From: an uncultured Rhodospirillaceae bacterium
Lineage (GTDB): Bacteria; Pseudomonadota; Alphaproteobacteria; SP197
NCBI GenBank assembly: GCA_937880925.1
Contig: CALGGB010000292.1
Location: 1-41,419, forward strand
Length of the DNA stretch: 41,419 bases
Direction: 5' to 3'
In this document: positions 9,789-38,070 of the stretch, one piece after another
How the letters are laid out: each line of letters opens with the position of its first letter
How positions within the stretch are numbered: the stretch's first letter is position 1
Position numbers and translations under genes: made by a program
Notes under the pieces: generated by a model
Told to the model about the DNA's origin: nothing
What the model saw: the letters and a program-made list of their open reading frames with translations, nothing else
The model's database searches: none

Positions 9789-10865
9789 ATGACCACCACC
9801 AAGAGGTTCAAGAGCAGCCACAGCCGTCGCAGCGTTCTCAAAGGCGCCGGCGCCATTGCCACGATCGGTGCAGCCAGCAGCTTCGGCTTCCCCGCAATCG
9901 CCCAGTCCAAGCCCGAACAGCTTGTCATCGCCTCGGGCGGCGGCGCGCTCGACGAGGCCTACAAGGTCGCCTATTTCGACACCTTTACCGAAAAGACCGG
10001 CATCAAGATCATCACCGCGCCCTACGCGGGCCTGGCCAAGATCAAGTCGATGATCGAGGCCGACAACGTCGATCTCGACGTGCTCAACATCGATGCCGCC
10101 GAGGCGCCGGTGGCGGGCAACAACGGCTGGCTTGAGCCGATCGACTGGAGCCTCTCGGACCGCGCCTCGGTTATCCCCCAGGCGGCCAAGGACGACCACG
10201 TCTATGCCGAGGTCGCGGCCAAGGTCATGGCCTGGAACACCGATGCCTATGGCGACAACCCGCCCGAGAACTGGACCTCCATGTGGGACGTCAAGGGCCG
10301 CCCGGGCATCCGCAGCCTGTGGAAGCAGGCCTTCCAGACCATGGAAGTCGCCCTGATGGGCGATGGCGTAGCCAAGGACGCGATCTATCCCATCGACGTC
10401 GACCGCGCGCTGGCAGCGCTCGACAAGATCCGCGATGACCTCATCTGGTGGGAATCGGGCGGCCAGTCGGCGCAGTACCTGATCGACGGCGAAAGCGACA
10501 TCGGCTCGACCTGGAACGGCCGTGTCTATCAGCCCCAGGTCGACGGCGCGCCGGTGAACTACACCTTCAACGATGCGCTCTTCGTCTCGGGCTCCTGGTG
10601 CATCGTCAAGGGCACGCCCAATTCCAAGTGGTCCCAGGAGTTCATCGCCCACACGCTCGATCCCGAGCTGCAGGCGGTCTATTCGATGAACATCCCCTAC
10701 GGCCCGGTCGTGCCGGCGGCCCTGCAGTACATCCCTGCCGAGCGTCTGCCGCTGCTGCCGAGCTCGGAGGAGAACATCGGCAAGGGCGTGTGGTCCGACT
10801 TCGACTTCTGGGCCGAACACGGCGAAGAGGTGATCAACCGCTTCAACGAGTGGCTGCTCTCCTGA
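9789..10865 (+). CDS. ABC transporter substrate-binding protein (PotD-like, Tat-type signal)
   Basis: Start at 9789 (MTTTKRFKSSHSRRSVLKGAGAIATIGAASSFGFPAIAQ). Extracellular solute-binding fold; followed by two permeases and an ATPase. Confidence 0.9.
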   Translation: MTTTKRFKSSHSRRSVLKGAGAIATIGAASSFGFPAIAQSKPEQLVIASGGGALDEAYKVAYFDTFTEKTGIKIITAPYAGLAKIKSMIEADNVDLDVLNIDAAEAPVAGNNGWLEPIDWSLSDRASVIPQAAKDDHVYAEVAAKVMAWNTDAYGDNPPENWTSMWDVKGRPGIRSLWKQAFQTMEVALMGDGVAKDAIYPIDVDRALAALDKIRDDLIWWESGGQSAQYLIDGESDIGSTWNGRVYQPQVDGAPVNYTFNDALFVSGSWCIVKGTPNSKWSQEFIAHTLDPELQAVYSMNIPYGPVVPAALQYIPAERLPLLPSSEENIGKGVWSDFDFWAEHGEEVINRFNEWLLS

Positions 10866-10899: not shown

Positions 10900-11778
10900 A
10901 TGACCTCGCGGGACCCTGCGATGCGGCAAGCCACGGGCCGGATATGGAGTCCGGCCCGTGGCTACTTCGTGATCCTGTCGCTGCCGGTGATCTTCCTGGC
11001 GGTGTTTTTCATCTGGCCGCTGGCCGGCGTGATACTGCGCAGCTTCGGGGGCGATGAAGGCATCTTCTTCCAGTACCTCACCGTCTTCGAGCGTGACTCC
11101 TACCTGAAGGTCCTGGGCTACACGCTGCAGGTCGCAACGACCGTGACCGTGCTCTGCCTGCTGATCGCCTATCCCGTGGCAGCGCTGGTCGCGCGCCTGC
11201 AGGGAAGCTGGCTGCAGCTGGCCTTCGCCCTGATTCTGGTGCCCTTCTGGACCAGCACCGTGATCCGCACCTATGCCTGGATGGTCCTGTTCCAGCGCAA
11301 GGGCGTGATCAACGATGCACTGCTGAACTTCGGCGTGATCGATGCGCCGCTGCGCTTCATGCACAACAACATCGGCGTCCACATCGGCATGGTCCACATC
11401 ATGCTGCCCTTCATGCTGCTGCCGCTGATCAGTGCTTTCCGCAACATCGATCCCAGCTACATGCGCGCCGCGGGCGTGCTGGGCGCCAATCCGATCCGCG
11501 CCTTCTGGCACGTCTACCTGCCGCTCTCGATGCCCGGCGTCAGCGCCGGCGTGGCACTGGTCTTCATCACCTCGCTGGGTTTCTTCATCACGCCGGCCCT
11601 GCTGGGCGGGGCCAAGAACATGATGCTCGCGGTGCTGATCGAACAGCAGGTCACCATCACGGTGAACTGGGAGCTGGCGAGCGCGCTGGCCTCGATCCTG
11701 CTGATCGTCACGGCCTGCCTTTACGTCGTCTATGACCGGGTGTCGCGCCGAGCCGGCGGCGGCGGGGTGCTCGACTGA
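10900..11778 (+). CDS. ABC transporter permease (PotB-like)
   Basis: 292 aa multi-pass membrane protein with an EAA-like loop (YMRAAGVLGANPIRAFWHVYLPLSMPG). Confidence 0.9.
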   Translation: MTSRDPAMRQATGRIWSPARGYFVILSLPVIFLAVFFIWPLAGVILRSFGGDEGIFFQYLTVFERDSYLKVLGYTLQVATTVTVLCLLIAYPVAALVARLQGSWLQLAFALILVPFWTSTVIRTYAWMVLFQRKGVINDALLNFGVIDAPLRFMHNNIGVHIGMVHIMLPFMLLPLISAFRNIDPSYMRAAGVLGANPIRAFWHVYLPLSMPGVSAGVALVFITSLGFFITPALLGGAKNMMLAVLIEQQVTITVNWELASALASILLIVTACLYVVYDRVSRRAGGGGVLD

Positions 11779-12587
11779 TGACCTGGAACAGTTCAGGGCG
11801 CCTGGCTCGCATCTTCATCGTCGCCTTCACGGTGGCCGTGCTGATCTACCTGATCATGCCGACCTTCGTGATCGTGCCGATGAGCTTTTCCAGCAAGTCC
11901 TACCTCTCGTTCCCGCCGCCTGGCTGGTCGCTGCAGTGGTACCAGACCATGACGGAGCGCCACGACTATCCCCAGGCGTTCTGGAACAGCATCAAGATCG
12001 GCGTGCCTGTCGCCCTGCTCTCCACCACCCTGGGCACGCTGGCCGCGCTGGGCGTGGTGCGCGGGCGCTTTTTTGGTGCCCGGCCCATGTCGGCCATCGT
12101 CATCGCGCCGCTGATGCTGCCCCAGATCATCCTGGCGATCGGCCTCTACCCGATCATGGCGAAGTTCGGCCTGGCGGGCAGCTACCCCGGCGTCGTGATC
12201 GGCCATACGGTGATCTGCATTCCGCTGGTCTTCATCACGGTCGCGGCCTCGCTGAAGAACTATCATCCGGCTTATGAGTATGCGGCCATGACGCTTGGCG
12301 CGGGCTGGTGGTCGACCTTCTGGCACGTCACCTTCCCGATGATCCGGGTCGGCGTGATCGTCGGCGGGATCCTGGCCTTCACCTTCTCCTTCGACGAACT
12401 GATCATCGCGCTCTTCCTCACCAGCCCGGAGACGCGGACCCTGCCGCGCCTGCTGTGGGAGGATCTGCGCCAGTACGTCACCCCGATCATCGCGGCGGCA
12501 ACCACGCTGGTGCTCTGCATCTCCTTCATCCTGTTTGGCGCCGTGGCCCTGCTGCAGCGCCGTCTATCCAAGGCAAGCAAATCATGA
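11778..12587 (+). CDS. ABC transporter permease (PotC-like)
   Basis: 269 aa. EAA-like loop YEYAAMTLGAGWWSTFWHVTFPMIRVG. Start overlaps the previous stop. Confidence 0.9.
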   Translation: MTWNSSGRLARIFIVAFTVAVLIYLIMPTFVIVPMSFSSKSYLSFPPPGWSLQWYQTMTERHDYPQAFWNSIKIGVPVALLSTTLGTLAALGVVRGRFFGARPMSAIVIAPLMLPQIILAIGLYPIMAKFGLAGSYPGVVIGHTVICIPLVFITVAASLKNYHPAYEYAAMTLGAGWWSTFWHVTFPMIRVGVIVGGILAFTFSFDELIIALFLTSPETRTLPRLLWEDLRQYVTPIIAAATTLVLCISFILFGAVALLQRRLSKASKS

Positions 12588-13663
12588 GCGGCCAAGGCGC
12601 AAAGATCGAATACGTCGACATCTCCAAGCGGTACGGTGCGGTCGAGGCCCTGCGCCCGACGAGCCTGACGATCGAGGCCGGCGAGTTCTTCTCCATCATC
12701 GGTCCCAGCGGCTCGGGCAAGACCACCCTGCTGGGCGTCACCGCGGGCTATGTCCCGCCGACGTCGGGCCAGATCATCATCGACGGGCGCAACGTGGTCG
12801 GCGAGCCGCCGTTCCAGCGCAACATTGGCATGGTCTTTCAGAACTACGCCCTGTTTCCGCACATGACGGTGGCTGAGAACATCGGCTTCCCCCTGCGCAT
12901 GCGCAAAACGCCCAGGGCCGAGATTGCAGAGCGCGTGAAGAAGATGCTGGCGCTGGTCCAGCTCGAGGAGATGGCGAGCCGCAAGCCCGGCCAGCTCTCG
13001 GGTGGCCAGCAGCAGCGCATCGCGCTCGCCCGCGCCGCCGTCTACGATCCGCTGATGCTGCTGATGGACGAGCCGCTGTCGGCGCTCGACAAGAACCTGC
13101 GCGAGGCCATGCAGGACGAGGTCAAGCAGTTCCAGACCGTGCTCGGCTCCACCGTGCTTTATGTCACCCACGACCAGGCCGAGGCCGCGGCCATGTCGGA
13201 CCGCATCGCCATCATGAACCACGGCCGCATCGTGCAGATCGGCTCGCCGCGCGATCTCTACGAACATCCCGTGGCGCGTTTCGTGGCGAGCTTCCTGGGC
13301 GAGGCCAACATCTTCGACATCGAGAGCGTCACGCCCCACGCCAGCGGTTCGATGATCGCGACGCATCATGGCTTCTCCCTGGTCTGCGCCGCATCGGGCA
13401 GCCACGACGGCCAGTGCGTGTGCGTGCGCCCGGAGGCGGTGGCGCTCTCGGCCAGCCGCCCCGAACACGACAACGTGCTGGAGGGCAAGGTGGTGGATGC
13501 CACCTATACCGCAGGCAGCCTGCGCTATCGCGTGGAGCTGGCACCCGACTGCATCATCACCCAGCGCACGCCTTCGGTGCGCGGCATCGAGATGTTCGAT
13601 ACGGGTGCCACGGTTTTTGCCTCGTGGCGCGCCGAGGACACCCTTCTGGTTGACGACGATTGA
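12584..13663 (+). CDS. ABC transporter ATP-binding protein (PotA-like)
   Basis: Start at 12584 (MSGQGAKIEYVDISKRYG). Walker A GPSGSGKTTLLG, signature LSGGQQQRIALARA, Walker B LLMDEPLSALD, C-terminal TOBE-like part. 4-bp overlap with the permease. Confidence 0.95.
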   Translation: MSGQGAKIEYVDISKRYGAVEALRPTSLTIEAGEFFSIIGPSGSGKTTLLGVTAGYVPPTSGQIIIDGRNVVGEPPFQRNIGMVFQNYALFPHMTVAENIGFPLRMRKTPRAEIAERVKKMLALVQLEEMASRKPGQLSGGQQQRIALARAAVYDPLMLLMDEPLSALDKNLREAMQDEVKQFQTVLGSTVLYVTHDQAEAAAMSDRIAIMNHGRIVQIGSPRDLYEHPVARFVASFLGEANIFDIESVTPHASGSMIATHHGFSLVCAASGSHDGQCVCVRPEAVALSASRPEHDNVLEGKVVDATYTAGSLRYRVELAPDCIITQRTPSVRGIEMFDTGATVFASWRAEDTLLVDDD

Positions 13664-13692: not shown

Positions 13693-14775
13693 ATGGAACT
13701 GGGTCTTTTTTCGCTGATGCCGCTGCGCGACACCGCGCGTCCGCCCAAGACGATCTACGAGGACACGATCGGCCTGGTGAAGGATGCCGAGGCCGGCGGC
13801 TTCGACATCGCCTGGTTCGCCGAACACCATTTCGGCAACTACAGCATGTGCCCCTCGCCCCTGATGATGGCCAGCCACTGCGCGGGCGTGACCAGCAGGA
13901 TCGCACTGGGCGCTGCCGTGCTGGTGACGCCGCTCTACTACCCCATGCGCGTCATCCAGGAACTGGGCATGCTCGACATCCTGAGCGGCGGGCGCGCCGT
14001 GATCGGCCTGGGCTCGGGCTACCAGGGCTACGAATTCGACCGCTACGGCGTCGACCTGAAGGAAAACTGGGCGATCACCCACGAGTTCATGGACATCCTG
14101 GAGATGGCGCTGGAAACCGGCCAGGTGACCTACGAGGGCAAGCACTTCCACATCCCCGAAACGCCCATCGGCGTGCGCATGATGCAGGAGAACCCGCGCG
14201 TCTATATCGCGGGCAACGAGCCAGCCTATCTGGAACGTTCCTGCAGGCGCGGCTACACCCCCATCGCTACCGTAGGCGGCCAGCCGGTGGAGGTGATGCT
14301 GAAGGTGAAGAACCACGTCGTGGAACAGTTCCGCAAGGCCGGCTGGCAGGGTACCGACGTGCCCTTCGGCATGCAGCGGAGCGTGTTCGTCACCGACGAC
14401 CCCGACGAGGCGCTCCATGCCGCCGCGCAGTCGCTCTACACCGCGCGCCTGGTCATGGCCTTCCGCGGCAACTACGAAAAGCTCGACGGCTTCGAACTGG
14501 TGCCCCAGCCCTACGAGGGCGAGCCCACGCCTGAGCAGATCCGCGACATCCTGCCCATGGGCAATGCAGAGACCTGCGCCGAGCGGATCGTCGCCGAGCT
14601 GAAAGCCGTGCGGCCCAGCCACTACAGCTGCTTCATGCAGTCGGGCAACATCGAGGGGACCGCGGCACGCCGCTCCATGGAGCGCTTCATCACCGATGTT
14701 CTGCCCATGGTCGAAGCCGAGGTCGGCAGCCTGAAGGATTTCGGCCCGGATCTTGGCCAGATGGCGGCGCAGTAA
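13693..14775 (+). CDS. LLM class flavin-dependent oxidoreductase (luciferase-like monooxygenase)
   Basis: 360 aa. GFDIAWFAEHHFGNYSMCPSPLMMASHCAGVTSRIALGAAVLVTPLYYPMRVIQELGMLDILSGGRAVIGLGSGYQGYEFDRYG. Confidence 0.92.
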   Translation: MELGLFSLMPLRDTARPPKTIYEDTIGLVKDAEAGGFDIAWFAEHHFGNYSMCPSPLMMASHCAGVTSRIALGAAVLVTPLYYPMRVIQELGMLDILSGGRAVIGLGSGYQGYEFDRYGVDLKENWAITHEFMDILEMALETGQVTYEGKHFHIPETPIGVRMMQENPRVYIAGNEPAYLERSCRRGYTPIATVGGQPVEVMLKVKNHVVEQFRKAGWQGTDVPFGMQRSVFVTDDPDEALHAAAQSLYTARLVMAFRGNYEKLDGFELVPQPYEGEPTPEQIRDILPMGNAETCAERIVAELKAVRPSHYSCFMQSGNIEGTAARRSMERFITDVLPMVEAEVGSLKDFGPDLGQMAAQ

Positions 14776-14802
14776 GCCGCAGGCAAGGCAGACAGCACGT
14801 TC

Positions 14803-15750
14803 ATGGCGACCTATCAGGTCATCGACACCCACACCGCAGGCCACCCTACCCGCGCCATCCTGGGCGGCCTGCCGCCGGTGCGCGGCGCCAGCGTGCTTGC
14901 ACGCCGCGACGATTTCCGCAATCGGCTGGATCACCTGCGACCGCAGCTTCTCCATGAACCGCGCGGCCATGCCGCCATGGTCGGCGCCATCCTCACCGAA
15001 AGCAGCCAGGCCGATTTCGGTGCCTTCTTCATCTCCTCCTACGTCTATCTGGACATGTGCGGGCATGCGACCATCGGCCTGGCGCGCACCCTGGTCGCCA
15101 GCGGCCAGGTAGCGCAGGGCGAGGAAGCCACCAGCTTCACGCTGGAAACGCCAGCGGGCGTCGTGACGGTCGGGGTGAGCCGCGCCCAGGACGGCGCTAT
15201 CACCGCCTCGATCCGCAACGTACCTGCGCGCCTGGAGGTGCCGGCCAAGACCGTGGCGGTCGAGGGCCTGGGCAGCATCGACCTGCAGATCGCCTATTGC
15301 GGCGGCCGTTTTGTCCTGGTCGATGCCGCCGCATTGGACCTGACCATCGAACCCGACCGCGCCGGGGAGCTCTGCCGCAAGGCGGCGGCGATCAAGGCAG
15401 CGGTCAACGCCGACCTTTCCGAACCCGCCGGATCGGTGCTGTTCTACCGCGACCTCGGCCAGGGCCGGGCGCAGCATCTGGTGGTGCTGGAAGCCCACAA
15501 GTTCGACCGCTCGCCCTGCGGCACAGGCACCAGCGCGCGGCTTGCCGCGCTCCATGCGGCAGGGGCGCTGGAGGTGGGCGAGACCTTCATTGCCGAAGGC
15601 ATCCTCGGCACCCGCTATGTCTGCCGCATCGAGGAGGCGGCCGACGGCGCCATCGTTCCCCGTATCGCGGGGGAGGCCTTCCTCAGTGCATTCTCCACTC
15701 TTGTCGTGGAGGACGCCGACCCGCTGGCGGCCGGGTTCCTGTGCCGGTGA
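14803..15750 (+). CDS. Proline racemase / hydroxyproline epimerase family protein with both catalytic cysteines
   Basis: 315 aa. First Cys in DMCGHATIG, second in DRSPCGTGTSARLAALHA. Confidence 0.9.
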   Translation: MATYQVIDTHTAGHPTRAILGGLPPVRGASVLARRDDFRNRLDHLRPQLLHEPRGHAAMVGAILTESSQADFGAFFISSYVYLDMCGHATIGLARTLVASGQVAQGEEATSFTLETPAGVVTVGVSRAQDGAITASIRNVPARLEVPAKTVAVEGLGSIDLQIAYCGGRFVLVDAAALDLTIEPDRAGELCRKAAAIKAAVNADLSEPAGSVLFYRDLGQGRAQHLVVLEAHKFDRSPCGTGTSARLAALHAAGALEVGETFIAEGILGTRYVCRIEEAADGAIVPRIAGEAFLSAFSTLVVEDADPLAAGFLCR

Positions 15751-15754
15751 CACC

Positions 15755-17455
15755 ATGACCTTCGACCACATCATCGTCGGCGGCGGTTCCGCGGGCGCGG
15801 TACTCGCCAACCGGCTCTCGGCCGATCCGACCCGTCGCGTGCTGCTGCTGGAGGCCGGCGCCGACACGCCGCCGGGGCAGGTGCCCGCAGCGGTGCTGGA
15901 TGCCTATCCCAGCGTCGCCTATTTCAACAGCGCCTGGCACTGGCGCGACCTGCGGGTCGACTACGAGCTGCTGCGCGGCAACCGGCCCTTCGTGCCGCGC
16001 CGCTACGAACAGGCCCGCCTGATGGGCGGCGGCTCCAGCATCAACGGCATGATGGCGATCCGCGGCAACCCGTCGGACTACGATGAGTGGGCGCAGCGCG
16101 GCGCCACGGGATGGTCCTTCGAAGACGTCCTGCCCTACTTCAAGCGCGCCGAAACCGATCTCGACTACGACGGCCCGCTGCACGGCAAGGAGGGCCCCTT
16201 CCCGATCCGGCGCATTCGCGAGCCCGAATGGCCGGGTTTCGCCCGTGCCGCCCGCAAGGCGATGCTGGCGGAGGGCTTTGCCGAACTGGAGGACCATAAC
16301 GCGGAGTTCGGCGACGGCCTCTTCCCCATGGCGATCAACAACCGTCCGGGCGGCGCACCCGACGGCACCCGCGTCTCCACCGCCATCGCCTATCTGGACG
16401 AGGTGACACGGGCGCGACAGAACCTGGAGATATGGCCCCACGTCATGGTCGAGCGCGTCACCTTCGAGGGTCGGCGCGCGACGGGCGTGGACGTGGTGCG
16501 CGACGGCGTGCGCAGCCATATCGCAGCCCGCGATGTCGTGCTCTCCTGCGGCGCCTTTCACAGCCCGGCCATGCTGCTGCGTTCGGGCATCGGGCCGGGC
16601 CGCCATCTGGCCGACATGGGCATCGCCGTGGTCGCCGACCGGTCAGGCGTCGGCCAGGGCCTGCAGGACCATCCCACCTGCACCCTGATCGGCCACGCGC
16701 AACGGCAATGGCGCATGCCCGCCGGCATGCGCCGGCACATCCACATGGGCCTGCGTTACTCCTCCGGCCATGCCGATTGCGCGGGCGGCGACATGTTCCT
16801 GATCGCCAACAACCGGGGCGGCTGGCATCCCCTTGGTCATCTGCTGGCGGGCCTCGTCATCGTCGTCAACAAGCCCTATTCGGAGGGCGCGGTGAAACTC
16901 GCCTCGCCCGAGCCGCAGGCCGAGCCGGAAATCCACTTCAACCAGTTCGCCGATCAGCGCGATCTGGATCGGCTGGTCGATGCCGTACGCCTGTCCTACC
17001 GGCTGATGATGCGGCCCGAAATCAGCAAGGGCCTCAAGGGCATGTTCCCTTCGACCTTCAGCGAGAAGGCGCGCGACCTTGCCGTGGTCAACACGAGCAA
17101 CTGGCTCCAGACCAAGGCCGCGGCGCTGATGCTCGACTTCCCGCCGACGCGGCGCTGGATGATGGAGCGCCACATCAGCCCCGGCATCGACATCCACAGC
17201 CTGATCAACGACCCGCAGGCGCTCACCGACTGGGTGCGCGAAAAGGCCTGCGGAAGCTGGCACGCAAGCTGCACCAACCGCATGGGAGCAAGCGACGATC
17301 CCCGCGCCGTGGTCGACCCCGGCTGCGCCGTGATCGGTGTGGAGGGTCTGCATGTCGCCGACGCCTCGGTGATGCCCTGCGTGCCCAGCGCCAACACCAA
17401 CCTTCCCACCATCATGATTGCCGAAAAGGCTGCCGACGCGATCATGGGGCTATAA
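15755..17455 (+). CDS. GMC family FAD-dependent oxidoreductase (choline dehydrogenase-like)
   Basis: Start at 15755 (MTFDHIIVGGGSAGAVLANRLSADPTRRVLLLEAGAD). GGGSSINGMMAIRGNPSDYDEWAQRGATGWSFEDVLPYFKRAE; C-terminal GLHVADASVMPCVPSANTNLPTIMIAEKAAD. Confidence 0.95.
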   Translation: MTFDHIIVGGGSAGAVLANRLSADPTRRVLLLEAGADTPPGQVPAAVLDAYPSVAYFNSAWHWRDLRVDYELLRGNRPFVPRRYEQARLMGGGSSINGMMAIRGNPSDYDEWAQRGATGWSFEDVLPYFKRAETDLDYDGPLHGKEGPFPIRRIREPEWPGFARAARKAMLAEGFAELEDHNAEFGDGLFPMAINNRPGGAPDGTRVSTAIAYLDEVTRARQNLEIWPHVMVERVTFEGRRATGVDVVRDGVRSHIAARDVVLSCGAFHSPAMLLRSGIGPGRHLADMGIAVVADRSGVGQGLQDHPTCTLIGHAQRQWRMPAGMRRHIHMGLRYSSGHADCAGGDMFLIANNRGGWHPLGHLLAGLVIVVNKPYSEGAVKLASPEPQAEPEIHFNQFADQRDLDRLVDAVRLSYRLMMRPEISKGLKGMFPSTFSEKARDLAVVNTSNWLQTKAAALMLDFPPTRRWMMERHISPGIDIHSLINDPQALTDWVREKACGSWHASCTNRMGASDDPRAVVDPGCAVIGVEGLHVADASVMPCVPSANTNLPTIMIAEKAADAIMGL

Positions 17456-17496
17456 CGACAGCCCCGGCCGCCGGCGCAAACAACAAGGAGGACGAC

Positions 17497-18279
17497 ATGA
17501 TCGAGAACAGGATCAGGACCATCTGGGCCGAAGGCGGCACCGTGTTCAACGGCTGGATCGCCTGCCCCAGCAGCGTCAACGCCGAGGTCATGGCGCGCCA
17601 GGACTGGGACAGCGTCTGCATCGACCTGCAGCACGGCCTGATCGACTATTCCGACGCCGTGGTGATGCTCCAGGCGATCACCCAGACCGACACGCCCCCG
17701 CTGGCGCGCTGCCCCTGGAACGAGCCGGTGATGATCCAGAAGCTGCTCGATGCGGGGGCCATGGGCATCATCTGTCCCATGATCAACAGCCGCGAGGAGG
17801 CCGAGCGTTTCATCGGCGCCTGCCGCTACCACCCGGACGGCTATCGCAGCGTCGGCCCGATCCGCGCGGCGATGTATGCAGGTTCCGATTACATCGTGAA
17901 GGCCAACGAGACGGTGCTGGCGATCGCCATGATCGAGACCGAGCAGGCTGTCGACAATCTCGACGAGATCCTCACCACGCCGGGGCTGGACGGCATCTTC
18001 GTCGGCCCGTCGGATCTTTCCGTGAGCCTGGGCCATGCCGCGGGTTTCGACCCGGAGTTCCCCAAGGTGATGAAGGCGATCAAGCACATCGCCGCGCGCT
18101 GCAAGCACCACGGCATTCCCGCGGGCATCCACACCGGATCGGTCGCCTATGCCGGCAAGATGCAGAAGGCGGGATACACCTTCATCACGATCCTGTCGGA
18201 CCTGCGCCTGATCCAGTGGTCGGCGGCCAACACGATCAAGGCGCTGCGCGCAGGAAAACCCGCCAAGAATGCCCCCTGA
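17497..18279 (+). CDS. HpcH/HpaI family aldolase
   Basis: Start at 17497 with AGGAGG upstream (aacaaggaggacgac). DSVCIDLQHGLIDYSDAVVMLQAI, LLDAGAMGIICPMINSREEAERF, GLDGIFVGPSDLSVSLG. Confidence 0.92.
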   Translation: MIENRIRTIWAEGGTVFNGWIACPSSVNAEVMARQDWDSVCIDLQHGLIDYSDAVVMLQAITQTDTPPLARCPWNEPVMIQKLLDAGAMGIICPMINSREEAERFIGACRYHPDGYRSVGPIRAAMYAGSDYIVKANETVLAIAMIETEQAVDNLDEILTTPGLDGIFVGPSDLSVSLGHAAGFDPEFPKVMKAIKHIAARCKHHGIPAGIHTGSVAYAGKMQKAGYTFITILSDLRLIQWSAANTIKALRAGKPAKNAP

Positions 18280-19540
18280 TCCGGCATCCCACGGCGCACC
18301 CATCGGCGGCCCGGTCACCATCGTCGGCGCCGGTATCGTCGGCATCTGCACGGCAAGCTGGCTGATCCGCGAGGGCCACGATGTCACCGTGATCGATGCG
18401 GACGAACCCGGCAACCGCTGCTCCTTCGGCAACGCCGGGGGCATCTGTCCGGGCTCGGTGGTGCCCATGGGCATGCCCGGCATGTGGAAGAAGGTGCCGG
18501 GCTGGCTAACCGATCCGAAGGGACCGCTGTTCATCCGCCTGGGCCATCTTCCCGCCGCCCTTCCCTGGATGCTGGCCTTCATGGCCTCGGGACGGCGCGA
18601 GCGGGTGGAGGCCATCTCCGCGGCGATGGCAGCACTCCACAGCGAAACTATCCTGCGCTACCGCGATCTCGTCGCCTGGGCCGGCTGCCCCGAGCTGCTG
18701 GTCGAGCGCGGCCAGCTCTTCCTCTACGAGAGCAAGGACGAACTGGAAGGCGACCGCTACGGCCTCGATCTGCGCCACAGGGCCGGAGCCGAGATCGACA
18801 TCCTTGAGGCCGGGGAACTGCGCCAGCTCGAACCTGCGCTGGACCATCGCTTCAGCCACGCGGTGTTCCTGCCCGGTCAGGCCCAGTGCCTCAATCCGCA
18901 CCGCCTGGTGCAGGAGCTGGCCGCGCAATTCGTCGCCGACGGCGGACGCATCGAACGCGCGCAGGTGCAGCGCCTGGAGGCGCGCGACGGACAGGTCCGC
19001 CGTATCGTCACCGACGCCGGAGAGCGGCGCATCGAGACGCTGGTGATGGCGGCTGGCGCATGGTCGGCACGCCTGCTCAAGACCGCAGGCATCCGCATTC
19101 CCCTGGAGGCCGAGCGCGGCTATCACGTCACCGTCGCCGATCCAGAGCATGCCCCGCGCATCCAGGCGATGTGGGCCAGACGCAAGTTCGTCGTGACACC
19201 CCAGGAGGGCGGCCTGCGTTTTGCCGGCACCGACGAATTTGCAGGCCTCGACGCCGCCCCCGACATGCGCCGGGCGAAGGTGCTGCTCGACCAGGGGCGC
19301 GAACTGATTCCCGGACTCAACCCCGAAAGCCACACCATGTGGATGGGCCATCGCCCGGGCACACCCGACAGCCTGCCGGTGCTGGGCCGCGACAGCCGCT
19401 ACGCCAACCTGCTGCACGCCTTCGGCCACGGCCACACGGGCCTGATGGGGGCTTCGGTCTCCGGCCATGTCATCGCCGACCTGATGGCGGGGCGGCGGCC
19501 CGAGCTGGACCTGTCGCCGTACCGGCCGGAGCGGTTCTGA
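18269..19540 (+). CDS. FAD-dependent D-amino acid dehydrogenase-like oxidoreductase (DadA-like)
   Basis: 423 aa. VTIVGAGIVGICTASWLIREGHDVTVIDADEPGNRCSFGNAGGICPG, LRFAGTDEFAGLDAAPDMRRAKVLL, YANLLHAFGHGHTGLMGA. Confidence 0.9.
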   Translation: MPPDPASHGAPIGGPVTIVGAGIVGICTASWLIREGHDVTVIDADEPGNRCSFGNAGGICPGSVVPMGMPGMWKKVPGWLTDPKGPLFIRLGHLPAALPWMLAFMASGRRERVEAISAAMAALHSETILRYRDLVAWAGCPELLVERGQLFLYESKDELEGDRYGLDLRHRAGAEIDILEAGELRQLEPALDHRFSHAVFLPGQAQCLNPHRLVQELAAQFVADGGRIERAQVQRLEARDGQVRRIVTDAGERRIETLVMAAGAWSARLLKTAGIRIPLEAERGYHVTVADPEHAPRIQAMWARRKFVVTPQEGGLRFAGTDEFAGLDAAPDMRRAKVLLDQGRELIPGLNPESHTMWMGHRPGTPDSLPVLGRDSRYANLLHAFGHGHTGLMGASVSGHVIADLMAGRRPELDLSPYRPERF

Positions 19541-19578: not shown

Positions 19579-20397
19579 TCACGTCGAGCGCTGGTAGGCC
19601 AGACTCACGGCCTGAGCGGTCTTGAGGATGACGGAGGCATACTCGCGTTCGGCCCTGGCGGGCGTGAATTCGTTGATGTCGAGGGTGATGGCGACGGTGG
19701 CAATCGGCTGTCCGGCGTAGTCGAAGACCGGGGCGCCAAGACACACCGCACGAGGATGGCAGGCGCGGTCGGTGATCGCGTAGCCGGTCTCGCGGGTGCG
19801 GGTCAGCGCCTGCAAAATCGCCTCGATCTCGGTCACCGTGTGGTCGGTCATCCGGTTGCGCGGCGCAGCGTCGATCAGCGCGAAGGCAGCGCGCTGGGGC
19901 ATGTGCGCCAGGATCGCCAGGCCCGTGGGCGAGCAGAACGCGGGTTCGCGCACGCCCACGGAGGGGCCCTTCACCAGCGACAGCTTCTGCGCCGCTCCTG
20001 TCATCGACAGCAGGACCACGCAATCGGTCTCGTTGAGCACGCAGAGTTCGAACTGGTGGCCGGTTTCCTGGGCGACGTTCTGGAGCACGGGATAGGCGCA
20101 GGCGACCAGCGGATCGTTGCCCAGATAGGCGACCGACCATGCCAGCACCTTCGCCGACAGACGGTAGCGCCGCGAGCGGGCGTCCTGCTGCAGGTAACCG
20201 GCGCTGACGAGCGTGGTGAGCAGGCGTCGCGCACCGCTGATCTCCAGCCCGGTCATCTTGACGATCTCGGTCAGCGATAACTCGCGGTGTCCCGCATCGA
20301 AGGCCTCCATCACCTGGAGACCCTTCAGCAGGGTCCGCGCCAGGGTGGCGCCGCCGCCCTCGCCACTGCTGCGCAATGCTTCCAACGTGTCGCTCAA
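19579..20397 (-). CDS. IclR family transcriptional regulator
   Basis: TTG start at 20397 preceded by GGGAGG. N-terminal winged HTH (LLKGLQVMEAFDAGHRELSLTEIVKMTGLEISGARRLLTTLVSAGYLQQDARSRRYRL) and C-terminal IclR sensor-like domain. The longer ORF track start (21060) would overlap glmL. Confidence 0.9.
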   Translation of the reverse strand: MSDTLEALRSSGEGGGATLARTLLKGLQVMEAFDAGHRELSLTEIVKMTGLEISGARRLLTTLVSAGYLQQDARSRRYRLSAKVLAWSVAYLGNDPLVACAYPVLQNVAQETGHQFELCVLNETDCVVLLSMTGAAQKLSLVKGPSVGVREPAFCSPTGLAILAHMPQRAAFALIDAAPRNRMTDHTVTEIEAILQALTRTRETGYAITDRACHPRAVCLGAPVFDYAGQPIATVAITLDINEFTPARAEREYASVILKTAQAVSLAYQRST

Positions 20398-20611: not shown

Positions 20612-22045
20612 ATGCGTTTGTCCACGTCCGACCGTGCCGAGGCCTTTCTTGCCGGGGACCGTCCCTGGAGCAGCGGCCTGCTGATCGACGTCGGCTCCAC
20701 CTTCACCAAGATCATGGTCATCGATCCCTCGGGCGCCGTCCTGGGCCGCGCCGAATCCTCCACCACCATCGACAACGACGTCATGGACGGCATCACCGCC
20801 GCCATCGCCAACCTGCCCGCCGACCTGCAGGGACCCTGGGACTGGGCGCTCGCTTCTTCCAGCGCCGCGGGCGGCCTGCGCATGGCCTCGGTGGGTCTCA
20901 CCGAGGCGCTTTCGGGGCGCGCGGGATCGCTGGCGGCCTTTGGCGCGGGCGGAAAGGTGGTGGCCACGGCCCACGGCTTTCTGGACGACGAGGCCATCGC
21001 CCGCATCGACGCCGAGAAGCCCCATCTGGTGCTGCTGGCGGGCGGTCTGGACGGCGGCAACAGCGCCGCACTGATTCACAACGCCGAGCAACTGGCGCGG
21101 CTGAAGACGCCCCACGGCTACATCGTGGCGGGCAACGCATCGGCCGCGCAGGAAGCCGCCGACAAGCTCCGCGACGGCAGCCGCGACGTGCGTGTGGTCG
21201 ACAATGTTTTCCCGCGCGCCGGCGAGATCGCGATCATGGCGACGCGCGACACCGTGCGGGATCTCTTCCTGCGCCACATCACCCGCGCCAAGGGCCTGGA
21301 AGGCATGATGGAGACCTTCCGGACCGACTGCGAGCCCACGCCGCTGGCGGTGAGCCTGGCGCTCGCCCACCTGCCCGGCGACGGCGGTCCCGTGGTTTTC
21401 GTCGACCTGGGCGGGGCGACGACGGACGTCCATTCCCTGGGCGGCGTGCGCCCGGACCAGCGCAAGGTGGAGATTCCCGAGCCCGAAATCATGCGTTCGG
21501 TCGAGGGCGACCTCGGTATGCGCTGGGGCGCGCCGGGCACGGTCGCCTCCATGACCAGCGCCTCGCGGGCGGTGGTCGAATCGCGCCTTTCCTGCAATCT
21601 GGAAGACGAAGCGAACCGCCGCCGCGACGATCCGGCCTTCCTGCCAGAAAACGACCACGACCGCGCCGTCGACCGGGCGCTGGCCGAGGCAGCCGTCGCC
21701 ATCGCCATCGAGCGCCACGCCGGCAAGGTGGTGGTGCGCCACCGCCCCTGGGGCGACCGCTACCAGGTAACCGGCAAGGACCTGCGCCCGACCCGCATCG
21801 TCGTCGGCATCGGCGGCGCCCTGCGTCACGGCGCCGAGCCGGTCGGCCTGATCGGCGACGCCATCGCCGGCATCGAGGGCGCGCAGGTGCCGCGCAACCC
21901 GGCCATCGCCATCGACCAGAGTTACGCCCTTTACGCGACCGGGCTGATCGCCCGCCATTCCCCCACCCTGGCGCGCGCGCTGGCAGCAGGCACGCTGCGG
22001 CTCGACGCCAGCCCGCACATCACCCCGGAGGTTCAGGCGTCATGA
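20612..22045 (+). CDS. glmL: MutL/GlmL-family protein (ASKHA-fold putative B12-mutase reactivase)
   Basis: 477 aa. LLIDVGSTFTKIMVID, LVLLAGGLDGGNSAALIHNAEQLA, VVFVDLGGATTDVHSLGG. 4-bp overlap with the downstream B12 mutase. Confidence 0.85.
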   Translation: MRLSTSDRAEAFLAGDRPWSSGLLIDVGSTFTKIMVIDPSGAVLGRAESSTTIDNDVMDGITAAIANLPADLQGPWDWALASSSAAGGLRMASVGLTEALSGRAGSLAAFGAGGKVVATAHGFLDDEAIARIDAEKPHLVLLAGGLDGGNSAALIHNAEQLARLKTPHGYIVAGNASAAQEAADKLRDGSRDVRVVDNVFPRAGEIAIMATRDTVRDLFLRHITRAKGLEGMMETFRTDCEPTPLAVSLALAHLPGDGGPVVFVDLGGATTDVHSLGGVRPDQRKVEIPEPEIMRSVEGDLGMRWGAPGTVASMTSASRAVVESRLSCNLEDEANRRRDDPAFLPENDHDRAVDRALAEAAVAIAIERHAGKVVVRHRPWGDRYQVTGKDLRPTRIVVGIGGALRHGAEPVGLIGDAIAGIEGAQVPRNPAIAIDQSYALYATGLIARHSPTLARALAAGTLRLDASPHITPEVQAS

Positions 22046-23781
22046 GCAACCTTGCTTCCTACCTTCCCCAGGACTGCCCGGACGGGCGCGCCCTGCTTGC
22101 GCAGGGCCGCGAGATCGCCAGGGACGTGACAATGGGTGTGAGTTTGCTGTGCGAGCAGCACGGCGTCACCTCGGAGGTGCAGTACAAGAAGAAGATGGTC
22201 GAGGAAGGCCGTCTGATGACCTCCCTCAACATCGGCATGCAGACCTGGGCCGAGACGGCGCGCGCCCTGGAGTACATCGCCGAGGAATCGGCCAAGCGCG
22301 GCTTCCGCGTCGATCGTTACCAGATGCAGATGGACCGCCGCATGGGCCTGCCGCCCGAGATGTGGGAGAAGGCGGCCAAGGAAACCGGCCCGATGCTGAT
22401 GAGCAAACAGGACTGGTGGGAGACCGCGCACTGCGCGCCGATCCAGCCCCAGCTCGGCGACATGATGATCGGCTCGCCCATGTCGGTCTCCAACGCGCGC
22501 AACGCCCTGGAAGCGGGCGTCACCTATATCGGCAACATGTCGCAGTTCGCCTGGAAGTATCCGGGCTGGCCGGGCGACGACGTCGAGCAGATGGCCGAGA
22601 TGGTCAAGGCCATGGGCCTGATGGCGGCCAAGCGCGACGAGGACGCGATGATGCAGTCCTATCTGGAGGACGGCTTCTGCGCGACCTTCAAGGATTACTG
22701 CTCCTACATCGGCTGGGCCATGTTCGAGCGGTATCTCATCAACGAGGTCATGGGCTCGCGCCTCTCCATCGCCTACGGCGGCCTGACTCACAATCCTGTT
22801 TCCAAGACCGCGGTCATCCTGGCGCTGGAGAAGATCAAGCCCGCGGGCACCTTCAACTCCTTCTACCACTGCAACACCACGGCCTATTCGGCCCAGGTCG
22901 ACGAGAACTACGCCGTGCTCTCGATCGACGACCTCTACCTGATGCTGGCCCAGCACCGCACCAAGTCCGGCGCGGCGACGCTGTCGATCCCGGTCACCGA
23001 GGCCCTGCGCATTCCCACGACCGAGGAGATCGTGCAGGTTCAGACCGTGGCCCATCGCGTGGCGCGCGATGCGCCGCGCCTGATGGAGAGCTTCAACTGG
23101 GATCACATCGACGCCATCTCCGACCGCATGATCGAGGGCGGCACGCGGTTCTACGAGAACATCATGCAGGGGCTGGAGGAACTGGGCGTCGACATGGGCG
23201 ATCCCATGCAGCTTCTGCTGACCATCCGCCGCATGGGCGCCCAGGCGATCGAGAACCAGTGGGGCGTGGGCGAACTGCCGACCAGCGATGCCGAGATCTA
23301 CGAGCCGGAGATCCCGACCGACACCTTCCTCGACTTCGTCGAGCGGCGGAACCGGGTGAAGACGATCTTCGGCGCCAACGGCAAGAAGCCCAAGGACGCC
23401 ATCCAGCTTGTCGTGGGCAGCACCGACATCCACGAATACGCCATGTTCCTGATCATCGAGGGCCTGCAGCAGGTCGGCATCCAGCCGATCGTCGCCGGCA
23501 CCAGCGTCGATCCCGACGAATTCGCCGACCTGGCGCTGGAGGCCGGCGCCAGCGCGATTTTGATCTCCACCCACAACGGCATGGCGCTGACCTACGCCCA
23601 GCAGCTCCAGAAGGAATGCGCCGACCGCGGCCTGGAGCTGAAGATCGCCATGGGCGGCACGCTGAACCAGGACGTCGAGGGCCTCAATGCCCCGATCGAC
23701 GTGAAGGAACAGCTGAAGGAGATCGGCGTCGTCGTCTGCACCGACGTCACCGACATCCTCAATCTGCTGCAGGCGCACTGA
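22042..23781 (+). CDS. Fused GlmE-like catalytic domain + C-terminal cobalamin-binding domain: putative B12-dependent mutase, substrate unknown
   Basis: Start at 22042 (MSNLASYLPQDCPDG). C-terminal IQLVVGSTDIHEYAMFLIIEGLQQVGIQPIVAG...ASAILISTHNGMAL...LKIAMGGTLNQD lines up with GlmS-type B12 domains. N-terminal ~430 aa resembles a mutase TIM barrel. Confidence 0.75.
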   Translation: MSNLASYLPQDCPDGRALLAQGREIARDVTMGVSLLCEQHGVTSEVQYKKKMVEEGRLMTSLNIGMQTWAETARALEYIAEESAKRGFRVDRYQMQMDRRMGLPPEMWEKAAKETGPMLMSKQDWWETAHCAPIQPQLGDMMIGSPMSVSNARNALEAGVTYIGNMSQFAWKYPGWPGDDVEQMAEMVKAMGLMAAKRDEDAMMQSYLEDGFCATFKDYCSYIGWAMFERYLINEVMGSRLSIAYGGLTHNPVSKTAVILALEKIKPAGTFNSFYHCNTTAYSAQVDENYAVLSIDDLYLMLAQHRTKSGAATLSIPVTEALRIPTTEEIVQVQTVAHRVARDAPRLMESFNWDHIDAISDRMIEGGTRFYENIMQGLEELGVDMGDPMQLLLTIRRMGAQAIENQWGVGELPTSDAEIYEPEIPTDTFLDFVERRNRVKTIFGANGKKPKDAIQLVVGSTDIHEYAMFLIIEGLQQVGIQPIVAGTSVDPDEFADLALEAGASAILISTHNGMALTYAQQLQKECADRGLELKIAMGGTLNQDVEGLNAPIDVKEQLKEIGVVVCTDVTDILNLLQAH

Positions 23782-24319: not shown

Positions 24320-25750
24320 TCAATCCGCCGGCGACGCGGCCTGCGCGGCCAAGCCTCGGAACAGGGCGATCAGGGCCGGCTCGTGGCCCTGGCGGCGGAT
24401 CTTGTCGTAGTAGTGGGGCTTCTGGCCGGACCAGACGAAGCTGCCCTGGAGACGGCCGGCCTCATCCTCCCCCTCGACGGCGAAGGTGAACATGTCCTGC
24501 AGGGCGATGACGCCGTCGGCGTAACCCAGCACCTCCTGGACCGCGGTCAGCCGGCGCGAGCCGTCGTGCAGGCGCTCGACCTGGATGATGAGGTCCAGGG
24601 CAGAACCGATCTGGGCCAGGACGTTGGAGCTGGGCAGGCCGAAGCCGGCCATGGCGACCATGTCCTCCAGCCGGTGCAGGCAGTCCTGCGGCGTGTTGGC
24701 ATGGATCGTCGACATCGACCCGGCATGGCCCGTGTTCATGGCCTGCAGCATGTCGAAGGCTTCCGAGCCGCGTACCTCGCCCACGATGATGCGGTCGGGG
24801 CGCATGCGCAGCGTGTTCTTCATGAGGTCGCGCTGGGTGATCTCGCCGCGGCCCTCGATGTTGGCCGGACGGGTTTCCAGGCGCCCGACGTGGATCTGCT
24901 GGAGCTGCAGTTCGGCGGTGTCCTCGATCGTCACGATGCGGTCGTTCTCGCGGATGGAAAACGACAGCGCATTGAGCAGCGTGGTCTTGCCTGAGCCCGT
25001 GCCGCCCGAGATCAGGATGTTGCAGCGCCCCATGACCGCCAGCTCCAGGAAGCGGGCGAGCGGCGCCGACATGGCGCCGAAGGAAACCAGATCGTCGAGC
25101 TGGAGCCGGTCCTTGCGGAAGCGGCGGATGGTGAGCAGCGGCGCATCGACCGCCAGCGGCGGAATGATGATGTTGACCCGGCTGCCATCCTCCAGACGCG
25201 CATCGCAGATCGGGCTGGACTCATCGACCCTTCGGTTGACGCCACCGGCGATGCGCATGCAGATGTTCACGAGCTGGGCGTTGTCGCGGAACGCGATGGC
25301 GGTCAGCTCGATGCGTCCCTTGCGTTCGATGAAGACGCGCTTGTGGCCGTTGACCATGATGTCGGTGATCTCGGGATCGTCCATCAGCGGCTCGATCGGA
25401 CCCAGGCCGAACATGTCGTTGAGGATGTCCTGGGTGATCTTCTCCTGCTCGGGCACCGAGATGACGATGCCCTTGCCCGTCACGATCTCGCCGATCAGCG
25501 CCGTGATTTCATCGCGCGCCTGCTCGCGGCCGAGCTTGTTGATGACCGAAACCTCGATGGTGTCGAGGATCAGCCCGAAGATACGGATCTTGATCCGCCC
25601 CAGCGGATCTTCGTTGTGCGCCTCGGGCGCAAGCGGATGTTCCGCCGCCCTGGCTGCCGTGCCGGAAGCAACGCTTTCGGTCTGGCGTCCCAGCGAGGGA
25701 TGCTGGCGGCGGCCGAAGCCGGCCGGGCCGTGGCTGTCATCGTTCTGCAT
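24320..25750 (-). CDS. CpaF/TadA-type secretion ATPase (second paralog)
   Basis: 476 aa. [94 protein letters not shown]. Confidence 0.93.
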   Translation of the reverse strand: MQNDDSHGPAGFGRRQHPSLGRQTESVASGTAARAAEHPLAPEAHNEDPLGRIKIRIFGLILDTIEVSVINKLGREQARDEITALIGEIVTGKGIVISVPEQEKITQDILNDMFGLGPIEPLMDDPEITDIMVNGHKRVFIERKGRIELTAIAFRDNAQLVNICMRIAGGVNRRVDESSPICDARLEDGSRVNIIIPPLAVDAPLLTIRRFRKDRLQLDDLVSFGAMSAPLARFLELAVMGRCNILISGGTGSGKTTLLNALSFSIRENDRIVTIEDTAELQLQQIHVGRLETRPANIEGRGEITQRDLMKNTLRMRPDRIIVGEVRGSEAFDMLQAMNTGHAGSMSTIHANTPQDCLHRLEDMVAMAGFGLPSSNVLAQIGSALDLIIQVERLHDGSRRLTAVQEVLGYADGVIALQDMFTFAVEGEDEAGRLQGSFVWSGQKPHYYDKIRRQGHEPALIALFRGLAAQAASPAD

Positions 25751-26629: not shown

Positions 26630-27652
26630 TCATGGACGTGCTGCGGCCGTCGGATCGTGAAAGGCTTGCTTGAGCGCGCCGTAGAAATCCGCCACGCCGG
26701 GGTGGCTCGGACGTTCCGGCTGAACCTCGAACTGCAGCCGGTAGAGCAACCGGCGACCGATGTCGCCCGGGTCCTCGGCGAAGGCCGTGCGACCGTGGAG
26801 CGTGGCCTTGTTGTCGAGCAGCAGCATGTCGCCTGCCTGCAGCTTGAAATAGAGCGCCATGCCGTCGCGGCCGGCAATCTGGTGGATCATGCGGCAACCC
26901 TCTTCGAGCGCCTGCGGGTAAGGCAAATCAAGTTCCTTCGCGGCGGCCGTCATGTAGCCCTCGTCGAGCACGCAGACGATACGCCCCTCGCTCCAGGAAA
27001 AGACCGGGACGGCGAAGTCGCTTACCTTCTCACCGGGCACGGGGGGCTCGTCGAACCAGTGGATGCGGTAGCCCTCGTAGAGCGCGGGCAGGAGGTCGGG
27101 ACGTTCGGCGGCCAGCACATTGTGGATGGTGGCCGCGCTGACGGCGCAGGATTCGCCGCCCTCGCCGGCCGGACGGACGCAGGCCAGGCCCACGCCATCG
27201 AGATAGTCGGTGTGAAAGGGCGAGCGGTTGGAGCTGCGGTAGCCGCGCCAGGCCTGTTGCAGAGTGGGATCGACCTGGACGCGGCCGAGCCTGTCGCCCT
27301 GGGCGCTCTGGCTGGCACGCCATCCGAAGTGGCTGCCCACGGCCCATGCGATGACCGCCGCCTCGTCCTCATCAAGCTCGTCCATGGGCAGGCCGCGCAG
27401 CAGCACAATACCCCGCCCCTGGTAAACCTCGCGGCGCACCCCGGCGAGGAGCCCGGCAAGTTCGGGCAGGGCCTCTTCCTGGCGCGTCACGTCGGGCCAT
27501 CGGCGGCCTTCGGCGCATACCTTCCGCCCCAGCGCCACCAGGCTGCGCCGCTGCGCCGGGCTCAACACCGCAGCGATGTCGTCGAGCGAACCGAAATCGT
27601 CGGCGCGCCAGGCAACGGGATGCTCGATGGGTTCCATCACGATGTCGGGCAT
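26630..27652 (-). CDS. TauD/TfdA/gamma-butyrobetaine-hydroxylase-like Fe(II)/2-oxoglutarate dioxygenase
   Basis: Start at 27652 (MPDIVMEPIEHPVAW). Metal motif FHTD...LHGR and distal RRLLYRL. Confidence 0.88.
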   Translation of the reverse strand: MPDIVMEPIEHPVAWRADDFGSLDDIAAVLSPAQRRSLVALGRKVCAEGRRWPDVTRQEEALPELAGLLAGVRREVYQGRGIVLLRGLPMDELDEDEAAVIAWAVGSHFGWRASQSAQGDRLGRVQVDPTLQQAWRGYRSSNRSPFHTDYLDGVGLACVRPAGEGGESCAVSAATIHNVLAAERPDLLPALYEGYRIHWFDEPPVPGEKVSDFAVPVFSWSEGRIVCVLDEGYMTAAAKELDLPYPQALEEGCRMIHQIAGRDGMALYFKLQAGDMLLLDNKATLHGRTAFAEDPGDIGRRLLYRLQFEVQPERPSHPGVADFYGALKQAFHDPTAAARP

Positions 27653-27725
27653 GGCCAATCTCCGGTCTTTCGGTGCGTGGCAGCCGCCATCGGCGGCGGC
27701 TGCATCGTCTTGGTGCACAGGCGCC

Positions 27726-27753
27726 GGCCCGCGCCACCCTGGCGGCGCGGGCC
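27726..27753 (-). terminator. GC-rich hairpin downstream of the family-5 binding protein gene
   Basis: GGCCCGCGCC-ACCCTGGC-GGCGCGGGCC, perfect 10-bp stem just 3' of the minus-strand gene ending at 27768. Confidence 0.5.
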
Positions 27754-27767
27754 GTCACACGGTCGCG

Positions 27768-29363
27768 TCAGGCCTGGTCGTCGAGCCAGGCTTCCTCGAA
27801 TATCCAGCCGTCACCAAGCTCCAGTACGGGGCTACCCTGATAGTTCTTCACACGGGTGCTCGACGCCTCCAGGTAATTGGAGAAGAACGGGATGAAGTCG
27901 CCGCCGTCGTCGTGCAACAGGGTGCATGCCTCGCAGTAGATTTCCTTGCGCCGGGCCGGGTCGGTTTCCTTGCGGCCCATGATCAGCAGTTCGTCGAAAC
28001 GTTCGTTGCACCAGGCTGTCTCGTTCCAGGTGGCATCGCACTGATGCGCGATCGTCAGGACCAGGTCCGCGGTCGGGCGCGAACTCCAGCCATCGGCACA
28101 CCAGGGCACCTTCATCCAGACGTCGCTCCAGTAACCGTCGTCAGGCACGCGGTTGAGCTCAATGTCGATGCCGCAGGCCCTGGCATGCTCCTGCAGCACG
28201 ACAGAGAGATCCACCGCGGAGCTGTTGGCCGCGTTGGAAACCACCAGCGTGGCCGAACTCAGCCCCGTCTTTTTCCAGTAGAACGCCGCCTTGTCGGGGT
28301 CGTACTCGGTCTGCGGGATCTCGTGGCAGTAGTCGGGCGAAGCCGGATTGACGGGGAAGTCGTTGCCCACGACCGCATAGCCCATCCGCACGTTGTCGAC
28401 GAGGTACTGGCGGTCGACCGCGTGTTTCATGGCCTTGCGGAAGTTGATGTCGTTGGTCGGCGCGCGGTCGCACATCATGGCCCAGTTGAACCAGGCGCCC
28501 GATGGCGTCGAGTAGATGGCAAGACCGGAGTCCATCTTGAGCAGATCGGCCGTGCGCGGATCGATCGCATTGACGATGTCGATCTCACCGGTGCGCAGGG
28601 CATTGGTCCGCGCCGTGCCATCGGCGATGCCCCGGGTCTCCACGGCCGCGAAATGGGCCGCGTCCGACTTCCAGTAGTTCCCGAAGCGCTCCGCCACGGA
28701 CATCATGCCGGGCGTGAACTCGGTGAGCCGGTAGGGACCTGTCCCCGTGATCGGATCCGCCTCCGTCCAACCCTCCGGCACGATATCCAGGTGGTAGTCG
28801 TAGCCCAGCAACACGGGGAAATCGGCATTGCCGGAATTGAGTGTGAACTTGATGACGTTGGGTCCGTCGGTCGCGATGTCGGTGACCGCCGCAAGGTACG
28901 GCTTGGAAGGCGATTCTGAATCCTCCTTCATGTGGATCTCGAAGGAGTAGAGCACGTCCTCGGCGGTCATCGTCTTGCCGTTGTGGAACTCGACGCCTTC
29001 GCGCAGCTTGAAGGTCCACTCCTGCGCATCGTTGGCGGACTCCCACTCAACCGCAAGATTGGGCACGACATTGATGCTGCGGTCGAGCGCCGTGAGCCGG
29101 TTGTAGACCTGGAACGAGCGGGCGATATCCGTGCCGCTGGTCATCCGTGTCGGGTTGAAGGTCTCGTCGGGGCCCGCGTACTCGGTGCCGACCCTCAGCG
29201 TGCCGCCGTTGACCGGCTCCTCGGCGATACCGGCGCTGGACAGCATCGTGGTCGCCGCAGCGACCCCCATGCCCAGCGCGCCGGCCCGCCCGACGAACTC
29301 CCGCCTGCTCATGCGCCCTGACTGAACCTGTCCGATCATCCACTGGAACTGCCTCTCGTTCAT
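27768..29363 (-). CDS. ABC transporter substrate-binding protein, family 5 (peptide/nickel type), Tat signal
   Basis: 531 aa. Tat-like SRREFVGRAGALGMGVAAATTMLSSAGIA; WTFKLREGVEFHNGKTMTAEDVLYSFE; ITGTGPYRL. No permease or ATPase genes beside it. Confidence 0.93.
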   Translation of the reverse strand: MNERQFQWMIGQVQSGRMSRREFVGRAGALGMGVAAATTMLSSAGIAEEPVNGGTLRVGTEYAGPDETFNPTRMTSGTDIARSFQVYNRLTALDRSINVVPNLAVEWESANDAQEWTFKLREGVEFHNGKTMTAEDVLYSFEIHMKEDSESPSKPYLAAVTDIATDGPNVIKFTLNSGNADFPVLLGYDYHLDIVPEGWTEADPITGTGPYRLTEFTPGMMSVAERFGNYWKSDAAHFAAVETRGIADGTARTNALRTGEIDIVNAIDPRTADLLKMDSGLAIYSTPSGAWFNWAMMCDRAPTNDINFRKAMKHAVDRQYLVDNVRMGYAVVGNDFPVNPASPDYCHEIPQTEYDPDKAAFYWKKTGLSSATLVVSNAANSSAVDLSVVLQEHARACGIDIELNRVPDDGYWSDVWMKVPWCADGWSSRPTADLVLTIAHQCDATWNETAWCNERFDELLIMGRKETDPARRKEIYCEACTLLHDDGGDFIPFFSNYLEASSTRVKNYQGSPVLELGDGWIFEEAWLDDQA

Positions 29364-29422
29364 CTCGTTGACCTCCTCGTCAGCGATGGTGACAGCCCGG
29401 ATTGCGCAGGGCTGATGGAACG

Positions 29423-37936: not shown

Positions 37937-37987
37937 AGCCTGCCAGACCTGTCTGCTTCAATTACGTATTGCTCTACTAAAACGAAT

Positions 37988-38035
37988 TATACTAAGACTC
38001 CGGCATCGGACCCAGCCAGCATGTACCCAGCCAGC
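37988..38035 (+). promoter_or_regulatory. Candidate promoter/leader: TATACT -10-like box and an ACCCAGCCAGC direct repeat
   Basis: AT-rich patch at about 37957-37997 with TATACT at 37988-37993. ACCCAGCCAGC at 38010-38020 and 38025-38035. Confidence 0.35.
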
Positions 38036-38070
38036 CCACACCCCGCCTGCCCCATCTCCCGCGAGGCCGC

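Follow-up and report, generated by a model that had tools for sequence, protein, structure and literature searches.

A single-chain B12-dependent mutase with a MutL-family partner, probably from a separate lineage of adenosylcobalamin isomerases in Alphaproteobacteria

To our knowledge, few B12-dependent carbon-skeleton mutases are known, and every new one has opened a pathway. The 2-methyleneglutarate mutase of Eubacterium barkeri is a single polypeptide of about 66 kDa whose B12 domain is C-terminal. In one survey it is listed as known from E. barkeri only (PMC2667541). The glutamate mutase of Clostridium cochlearium (GlmE/GlmS/GlmL; 1cb7, 1i9c, 6h9e) is formed by separate GlmS and GlmE polypeptides. 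MutL serves glutamate mutase as a chaperone that reactivates it (PMC4682846). Other described systems for comparison are methylmalonyl-CoA mutase (8dyj, 2xij, 1req) and D-ornithine 4,5-aminomutase. The window analysed here, a stretch of 41,419 nucleotides from an uncultured Rhodospirillaceae bacterium, contains a locus that shares traits with all of these. We think it probable that this locus encodes a class I adenosylcobalamin isomerase together with its reactivase, belonging to a separate alphaproteobacterial lineage and perhaps acting on an imported amino-acid-like carboxylate.

The gene mutL (20612..22045, plus strand) encodes a MutL/GlmL-family ATPase-like reactivase of 477 residues, and the gene after it (22042..23781, plus strand) encodes the mutase, a single chain of 579 residues. 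Both reading frames lie where an earlier note on this DNA had placed them, with the 4-bp overlap it described: an ATGA at 22042..22045 (plus strand) that joins the mutL stop to the mutase start. The AlphaFold model of the mutase, built from 14 family members (mean pLDDT 87.8, pTM 0.86), consists of a catalytic barrel (residues ~1-450) followed by a B12 domain (residues ~453-579), which bears out the description of both regions in one polypeptide. In Pfam and NCBIfam scans the sole recognisable domain is the B12-binding one, at residues 461-541, with 26.6 bits (E 6e-6), slightly below the curated cut-off. The match is not due to chance, because the same domain is found in 14 of 14 aligned family members, with a best E of 4e-11. 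The catalytic half matched no Pfam or NCBIfam model; PF06368, PF01642 and other catalytic families were unmatched in the 14 scanned members (the window mutase and 13 relatives), and when the PDB was searched with sequence profiles, the matches were confined to B12 domains. Pfam, NCBIfam and PDB sequence searches thus place the protein in no characterised mutase subfamily.

When the model was compared with the PDB by Foldseek, the top match was methylmalonyl-CoA mutase (E 5e-15), followed by GlmE (2.5e-10) and OraE (6e-10), which places the mutase among the class I adenosylcobalamin isomerases; the predicted structure has the barrel and the Rossmann B12 domain of that superfamily. The TM-scores are moderate (0.4-0.5), so that the fold does not single out one isomerase subfamily. 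A B12-binding protein that is no isomerase, for example a sensor or a corrinoid carrier of methyl groups, would agree with the resemblance of the B12 domain to methionine synthase and corrinoid proteins and with an MttB-type gene 16 kb downstream, but the top fold matches spanning both domains are isomerases and a MutL partner is present, and we hold this explanation to be highly improbable.

The cobalamin motif reads STDIHEYA (S460-T-D462-I-H464-E-Y-A467; 23419..23442, plus strand), with the Asp and His of the superfamily motif DxHxxG...S...GG kept and the last Gly replaced by Ala, as had been noticed before. The later elements of the B12 domain are also in place: STHNG (S509-T-H-N-G513; 23566..23580, plus strand) and GG (G538-G539; 23653..23658, plus strand). 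D462 and H464 are invariant across the aligned members, and in alignment A1 so are T510, N512 and G513 of the STHNG element and G538-G539. His464 is the predicted lower axial ligand of cobalamin.

With glutamate mutase the locus has in common the barrel and B12 fold, a MutL-family partner and a free-acid context, and it differs in being one chain and in the Ala at the last motif position. The earlier note had described the mutase as a fused GlmE-GlmS-like protein, and as a statement of descent this needs correcting as far as the sequence goes. PF06368 (GlmE) is unmatched, and profile-profile comparison of the family with GlmE by hhalign gave a weak, low-confidence alignment (E 0.06 over 209 columns), while global hhalign gave no useful one. 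The GlmE motifs QPRxG, TRxN, RH[GS][TS] and EGG[GP]I, which hold the substrate-binding Arg and the catalytic Glu, were absent from 37 of 37 family members in a pattern search. The domain order differs as well: the window family has its B12 domain last, as in methylmalonyl-CoA mutase and OraE, whereas the natural GlmS-GlmE fusions (L106, L107) have it first. A true glmL-glmE-mal locus of another proteobacterium (L105) looks unlike that of the window, and its GlmE aligns end to end with the C. cochlearium enzyme and carries QPRxG, TRxN, RHGTPD and EGGGI. Neither PF06368 nor the methylaspartate ammonia-lyase family PF07476 was found anywhere in the host assembly (G000), which is ~91% complete and fragmented into 323 contigs; this extends to the whole assembly the argument against ordinary glutamate fermentation that had been made from the window. 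The fold match to GlmE, the alignment over 209 columns and the best score of the MutL protein, which is to GlmL, would speak for a single-chain glutamate mutase; given the missing family match, motifs and ammonia-lyase and the different appearance of the true locus, we regard that identity as scarcely credible.

Methylmalonyl-CoA mutase, besides being the top Foldseek match across both domains, has the same domain order, but PF01642 is missing from the scanned members, the window protein is ~150 residues shorter, and its neighbour is MutL, in contrast to the MeaB-type neighbours of methylmalonyl-CoA mutase. D-ornithine 4,5-aminomutase resembles the locus by the OraE fold match and by a MutL-family partner, the GlmL-related Or-4, against which the window MutL also scores. 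Nevertheless, an ornithine- or lysine-type aminomutase is very unlikely, since the OraE equivalog model NF040743 matches the window mutase in the B12 domain only, at 22.8 bits for a cut-off of 800, and no OraS-type small subunit adjoins the mutase. Of the previous assignment as a carbon-skeleton or amino mutase of unassigned substrate, a MutL-serviced adenosylcobalamin mutase is supported (PF13941, Foldseek), and an amino mutase of the PLP type finds no support. Among known enzymes the likeliest relative, by its description, would be the E. barkeri 2-methyleneglutarate mutase, likewise one polypeptide of comparable size and with a C-terminal B12 domain. The window enzyme might then be its alphaproteobacterial relative, acting on a branched dicarboxylate, but nothing recognisable as a nicotinate-fermentation gene lies near the window and we think this unlikely.

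The product of 20612..22045 belongs by sequence to the MutL/GlmL family, with 399 bits against PF13941 (cut-off 27) and 226 bits against glmL_fam (TIGR01319; cut-off 204), while with 364 bits it stays under the cut-off of 475 of the NCBIfam GlmL equivalog. A full-length MutL adjoins the mutase at seven of seven loci of clade A (genera g1 and g4) and clade B, namely those of the window, G001, G007, G004, G000:C89, G006 and G013. Members of clade A from genus g2 have neither MutL nor a GABA-type importer beside them, and no full MutL over the cut-off was found in the g2 genomes G015 and G012. Compared with the same-genus genome G001, the mutase has a dN/dS (Nei-Gojobori) of 0.08 and mutL one of 0.15, and against another genus the value is about 0.2; purifying selection is thus apparent, and the two look like working genes.

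Upstream of the pair, an IclR-family regulator (19579..20376, minus strand; 165 bits against the PcaR/PcaU/PobR subfamily of NCBIfam, below the cut-off) is transcribed divergently from mutL. Further upstream, all on the plus strand, lies an ABC importer: a solute-binding protein of the GABA/opine group (9789..10865; PF13416 and nearest solved structures), two permeases (10900..12587, as 10900-11778 and 11778-12587; PF00528) and an ATPase with a TOBE domain (12584..13663; PF00005, PF08402). The order of importer, divergent IclR, MutL and mutase is repeated in G004 (L029), with identities of 82% for the binding protein, 83 and 85% for the permeases, 71% for the ATPase, 72% for IclR, 68% for MutL and 79% for the mutase. 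IclR orthologs that are 72-91% identical occupy the same place in G001, G007 and G004; conservation of the importer rests on one extra genus (G004), as the contigs of G001 and G007 end beside iclR. Neighbouring genes were defined with a codon-usage gene caller, by which genes may be trimmed or missed.

The nearest solved relatives of the binding protein are 4i1d, the GABA sensor Pf622 (9d57/6dgv) and the Agrobacterium GABA binder 4eq7, with opine binders next. The GABA site includes W9, T13, F100, W202, R205, D228 and Y264, and D228 contacts the GABA amine (PMC12999171). In the window protein W242, R245 and Y304 match W202, R205 and Y264, which are kept, while the positions W9, T13, F100 and D228 are changed. 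If R205 is the residue that binds the carboxylate, as we suppose, the ligand would be a carboxylate with an amine end different from that of GABA. Import of polyamines was considered and rejected because PotD/PotF are far more distant from the protein than the binders of GABA and opines are; the binding protein of the sister clade is closest to polyamine binders.

Five catabolic genes (13693..19540, plus strand) are found, in the window only, between the transporter and iclR. They encode a luciferase-like monooxygenase, a proline-racemase-family protein, a GMC oxidoreductase, an HpcH/HpaI aldolase and a D-amino-acid-dehydrogenase-like protein. As necessary members of the mutase pathway they were rejected: they need not serve it, because G004 (L029) has none of them between its orthologous transporter and iclR, and whether they form part of it in the window is uncertain. 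The proline-racemase-family protein (14803-15750) has both catalytic cysteines (MCGHA, SPCGTGT) and falls below all equivalog cut-offs; the D-amino-acid-dehydrogenase-like and HpcH/HpaI aldolase genes are its neighbours.

Returning to an isomerase with its reactivase, the substrate may, with less certainty, be an amino-acid-like carboxylate in free form that the ABC importer takes up under the control of IclR, as opposed to a CoA ester, and glutamate is improbable. From membership in the class I superfamily a course of reaction can be proposed. His464 would displace the dimethylbenzimidazole tail of cobalamin (base-off/His-on), and substrate binding would trigger homolysis of the Co-C bond. 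The adenosyl radical would take a hydrogen from the substrate, whose radical would rearrange before the hydrogen is returned. MutL might swap damaged cobalamin at the cost of ATP, the role that has been proposed for it with glutamate mutase. The host genome encodes a cob(I)alamin adenosyltransferase. The mutase and MutL are a tractable pair and the ligand of the transporter can be screened, so that the question of the substrate is testable.

Full-length members of the family were found in about 17 of 385 genomes of a class-wide alphaproteobacterial sample and in 4 of 399 of a phylum-wide sample of Pseudomonadota, all four alphaproteobacteria, a restriction that holds within Pseudomonadota and the sampled genomes only. 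In the GTDB family of the host, 9 of 16 genomes carry a member. A search of genome contigs with the single window protein as query gave two close relatives, and viral contigs scanned with alignment A1 gave 26 pattern matches, none of them a relative. Family members carry no annotation other than hypothetical or 'cobalamin-dependent protein', and we found no study of this B12 mutase family in the open-access literature.

In a tree of 37 proteins, Group I (clades A and B, n=8) and Group II (clades C and D, n=29) are separated by long branches with full support; the midpoint root serves the drawing alone, and a warning of the tree program says that long branches meet there. The single-chain layout with the catalytic region before the B12 domain is family-wide. 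DxHxxA is present in all eight Group I proteins, six from the clade of the window and two from the sister clade, whereas Group II has DxHxxG in every copy but one, a DVHEYA in a tandem copy of L087. Thus, the Ala is not an isolated substitution, a possibility left open by the earlier note, but a trait that the clade shares, and it must have arisen at least once more, in the L087 copy. No MutL over the cut-off was found in the 15 genomes carrying only Group II members. Judging from the sequences, Group I would be a mostly MutL-dependent DxHxxA group and Group II a DxHxxG group lacking MutL, both in a separate lineage within the isomerases. Plasmid entries of Shinella and Phyllobacterium named 'cobalamin-dependent protein' are full-length Group II relatives, 33-36% identical to the window mutase, from which they differ by DxHxxG, by lacking MutL and by records without functional assignment.

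The host genome itself has three copies: that of the window (clade A), a clade B copy that is 40% identical to it and adjoins a MutL of its own, and a clade C copy that is 35% identical to it and adjoins ccr. Clade C is found beside ccr in at least seven genomes of the window's family. At some ten loci the neighbour of a Group II mutase is a gene like that of pyrroline-5-carboxylate reductase (P5CR), whose product has P5CR dimerisation and F420_oxidored domains; in many cases the two genes overlap slightly. As leads, the P5CR-like and cyclodeaminase neighbours suggest a chemistry of amino acids or imines, and ccr suggests a CoA pathway. Across Alphaproteobacteria, genes for amino-acid, betaine-type and ethylmalonyl-CoA-pathway functions adjoin family members. 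A wider reading can be tentatively put forward, as a possibility of less than even chance: a new adenosylcobalamin isomerase lineage of aerobic alphaproteobacteria that would rearrange an imported amino-acid-like carboxylate in a way not yet described. Its clades would use several substrates, with MutL servicing a DxHxxA group, while a second group, free of MutL, would be linked to imine reductases or ccr.

Some arrangements at single loci deserve mention. In the host, the clade C paralog (L036, 2533-5589, G000:C247) carries DVHEHG and stands directly before ccr, the crotonyl-CoA carboxylase/reductase gene; the arrangement recurs at L037-L040 and L042-L044, and the ccr-linked copy is present although the host has methylmalonyl-CoA mutase and a second mutase of that family. 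At L096 (8229-11880, G142:C10) ornithine-cyclodeaminase-family genes flank the mutase on both sides, with a 4-bp overlap between the first of them and the mutase, and at L087 (2282-11278, G319:C20) five tandem mutase genes, one of them stop-interrupted, lie beside two P5CR-like genes.

Other parts of the window gave minor observations. The region 37295-41417 is a separate methylated-amine module, with an XRE-type regulator, an OYE/FadH-type flavoenzyme and an MttB-superfamily methyltransferase (247 bits, cut-off 525). Paralogous T2SSE/CpaF-type ATPases are encoded at 6441-7961 and 24320-25750, on either side of the transporter-mutase region. At 26630-30478, the gene of a peptide-type solute-binding protein lies between two TauD-like dioxygenase genes, a block kept in G001:C96 (L138). 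On that contig, 46 residues encoded at 4987-5124, between TauD-like and CpaF-like genes, are 85% identical to the C-terminus of the mutase and separate from the main mutase copy of G001.
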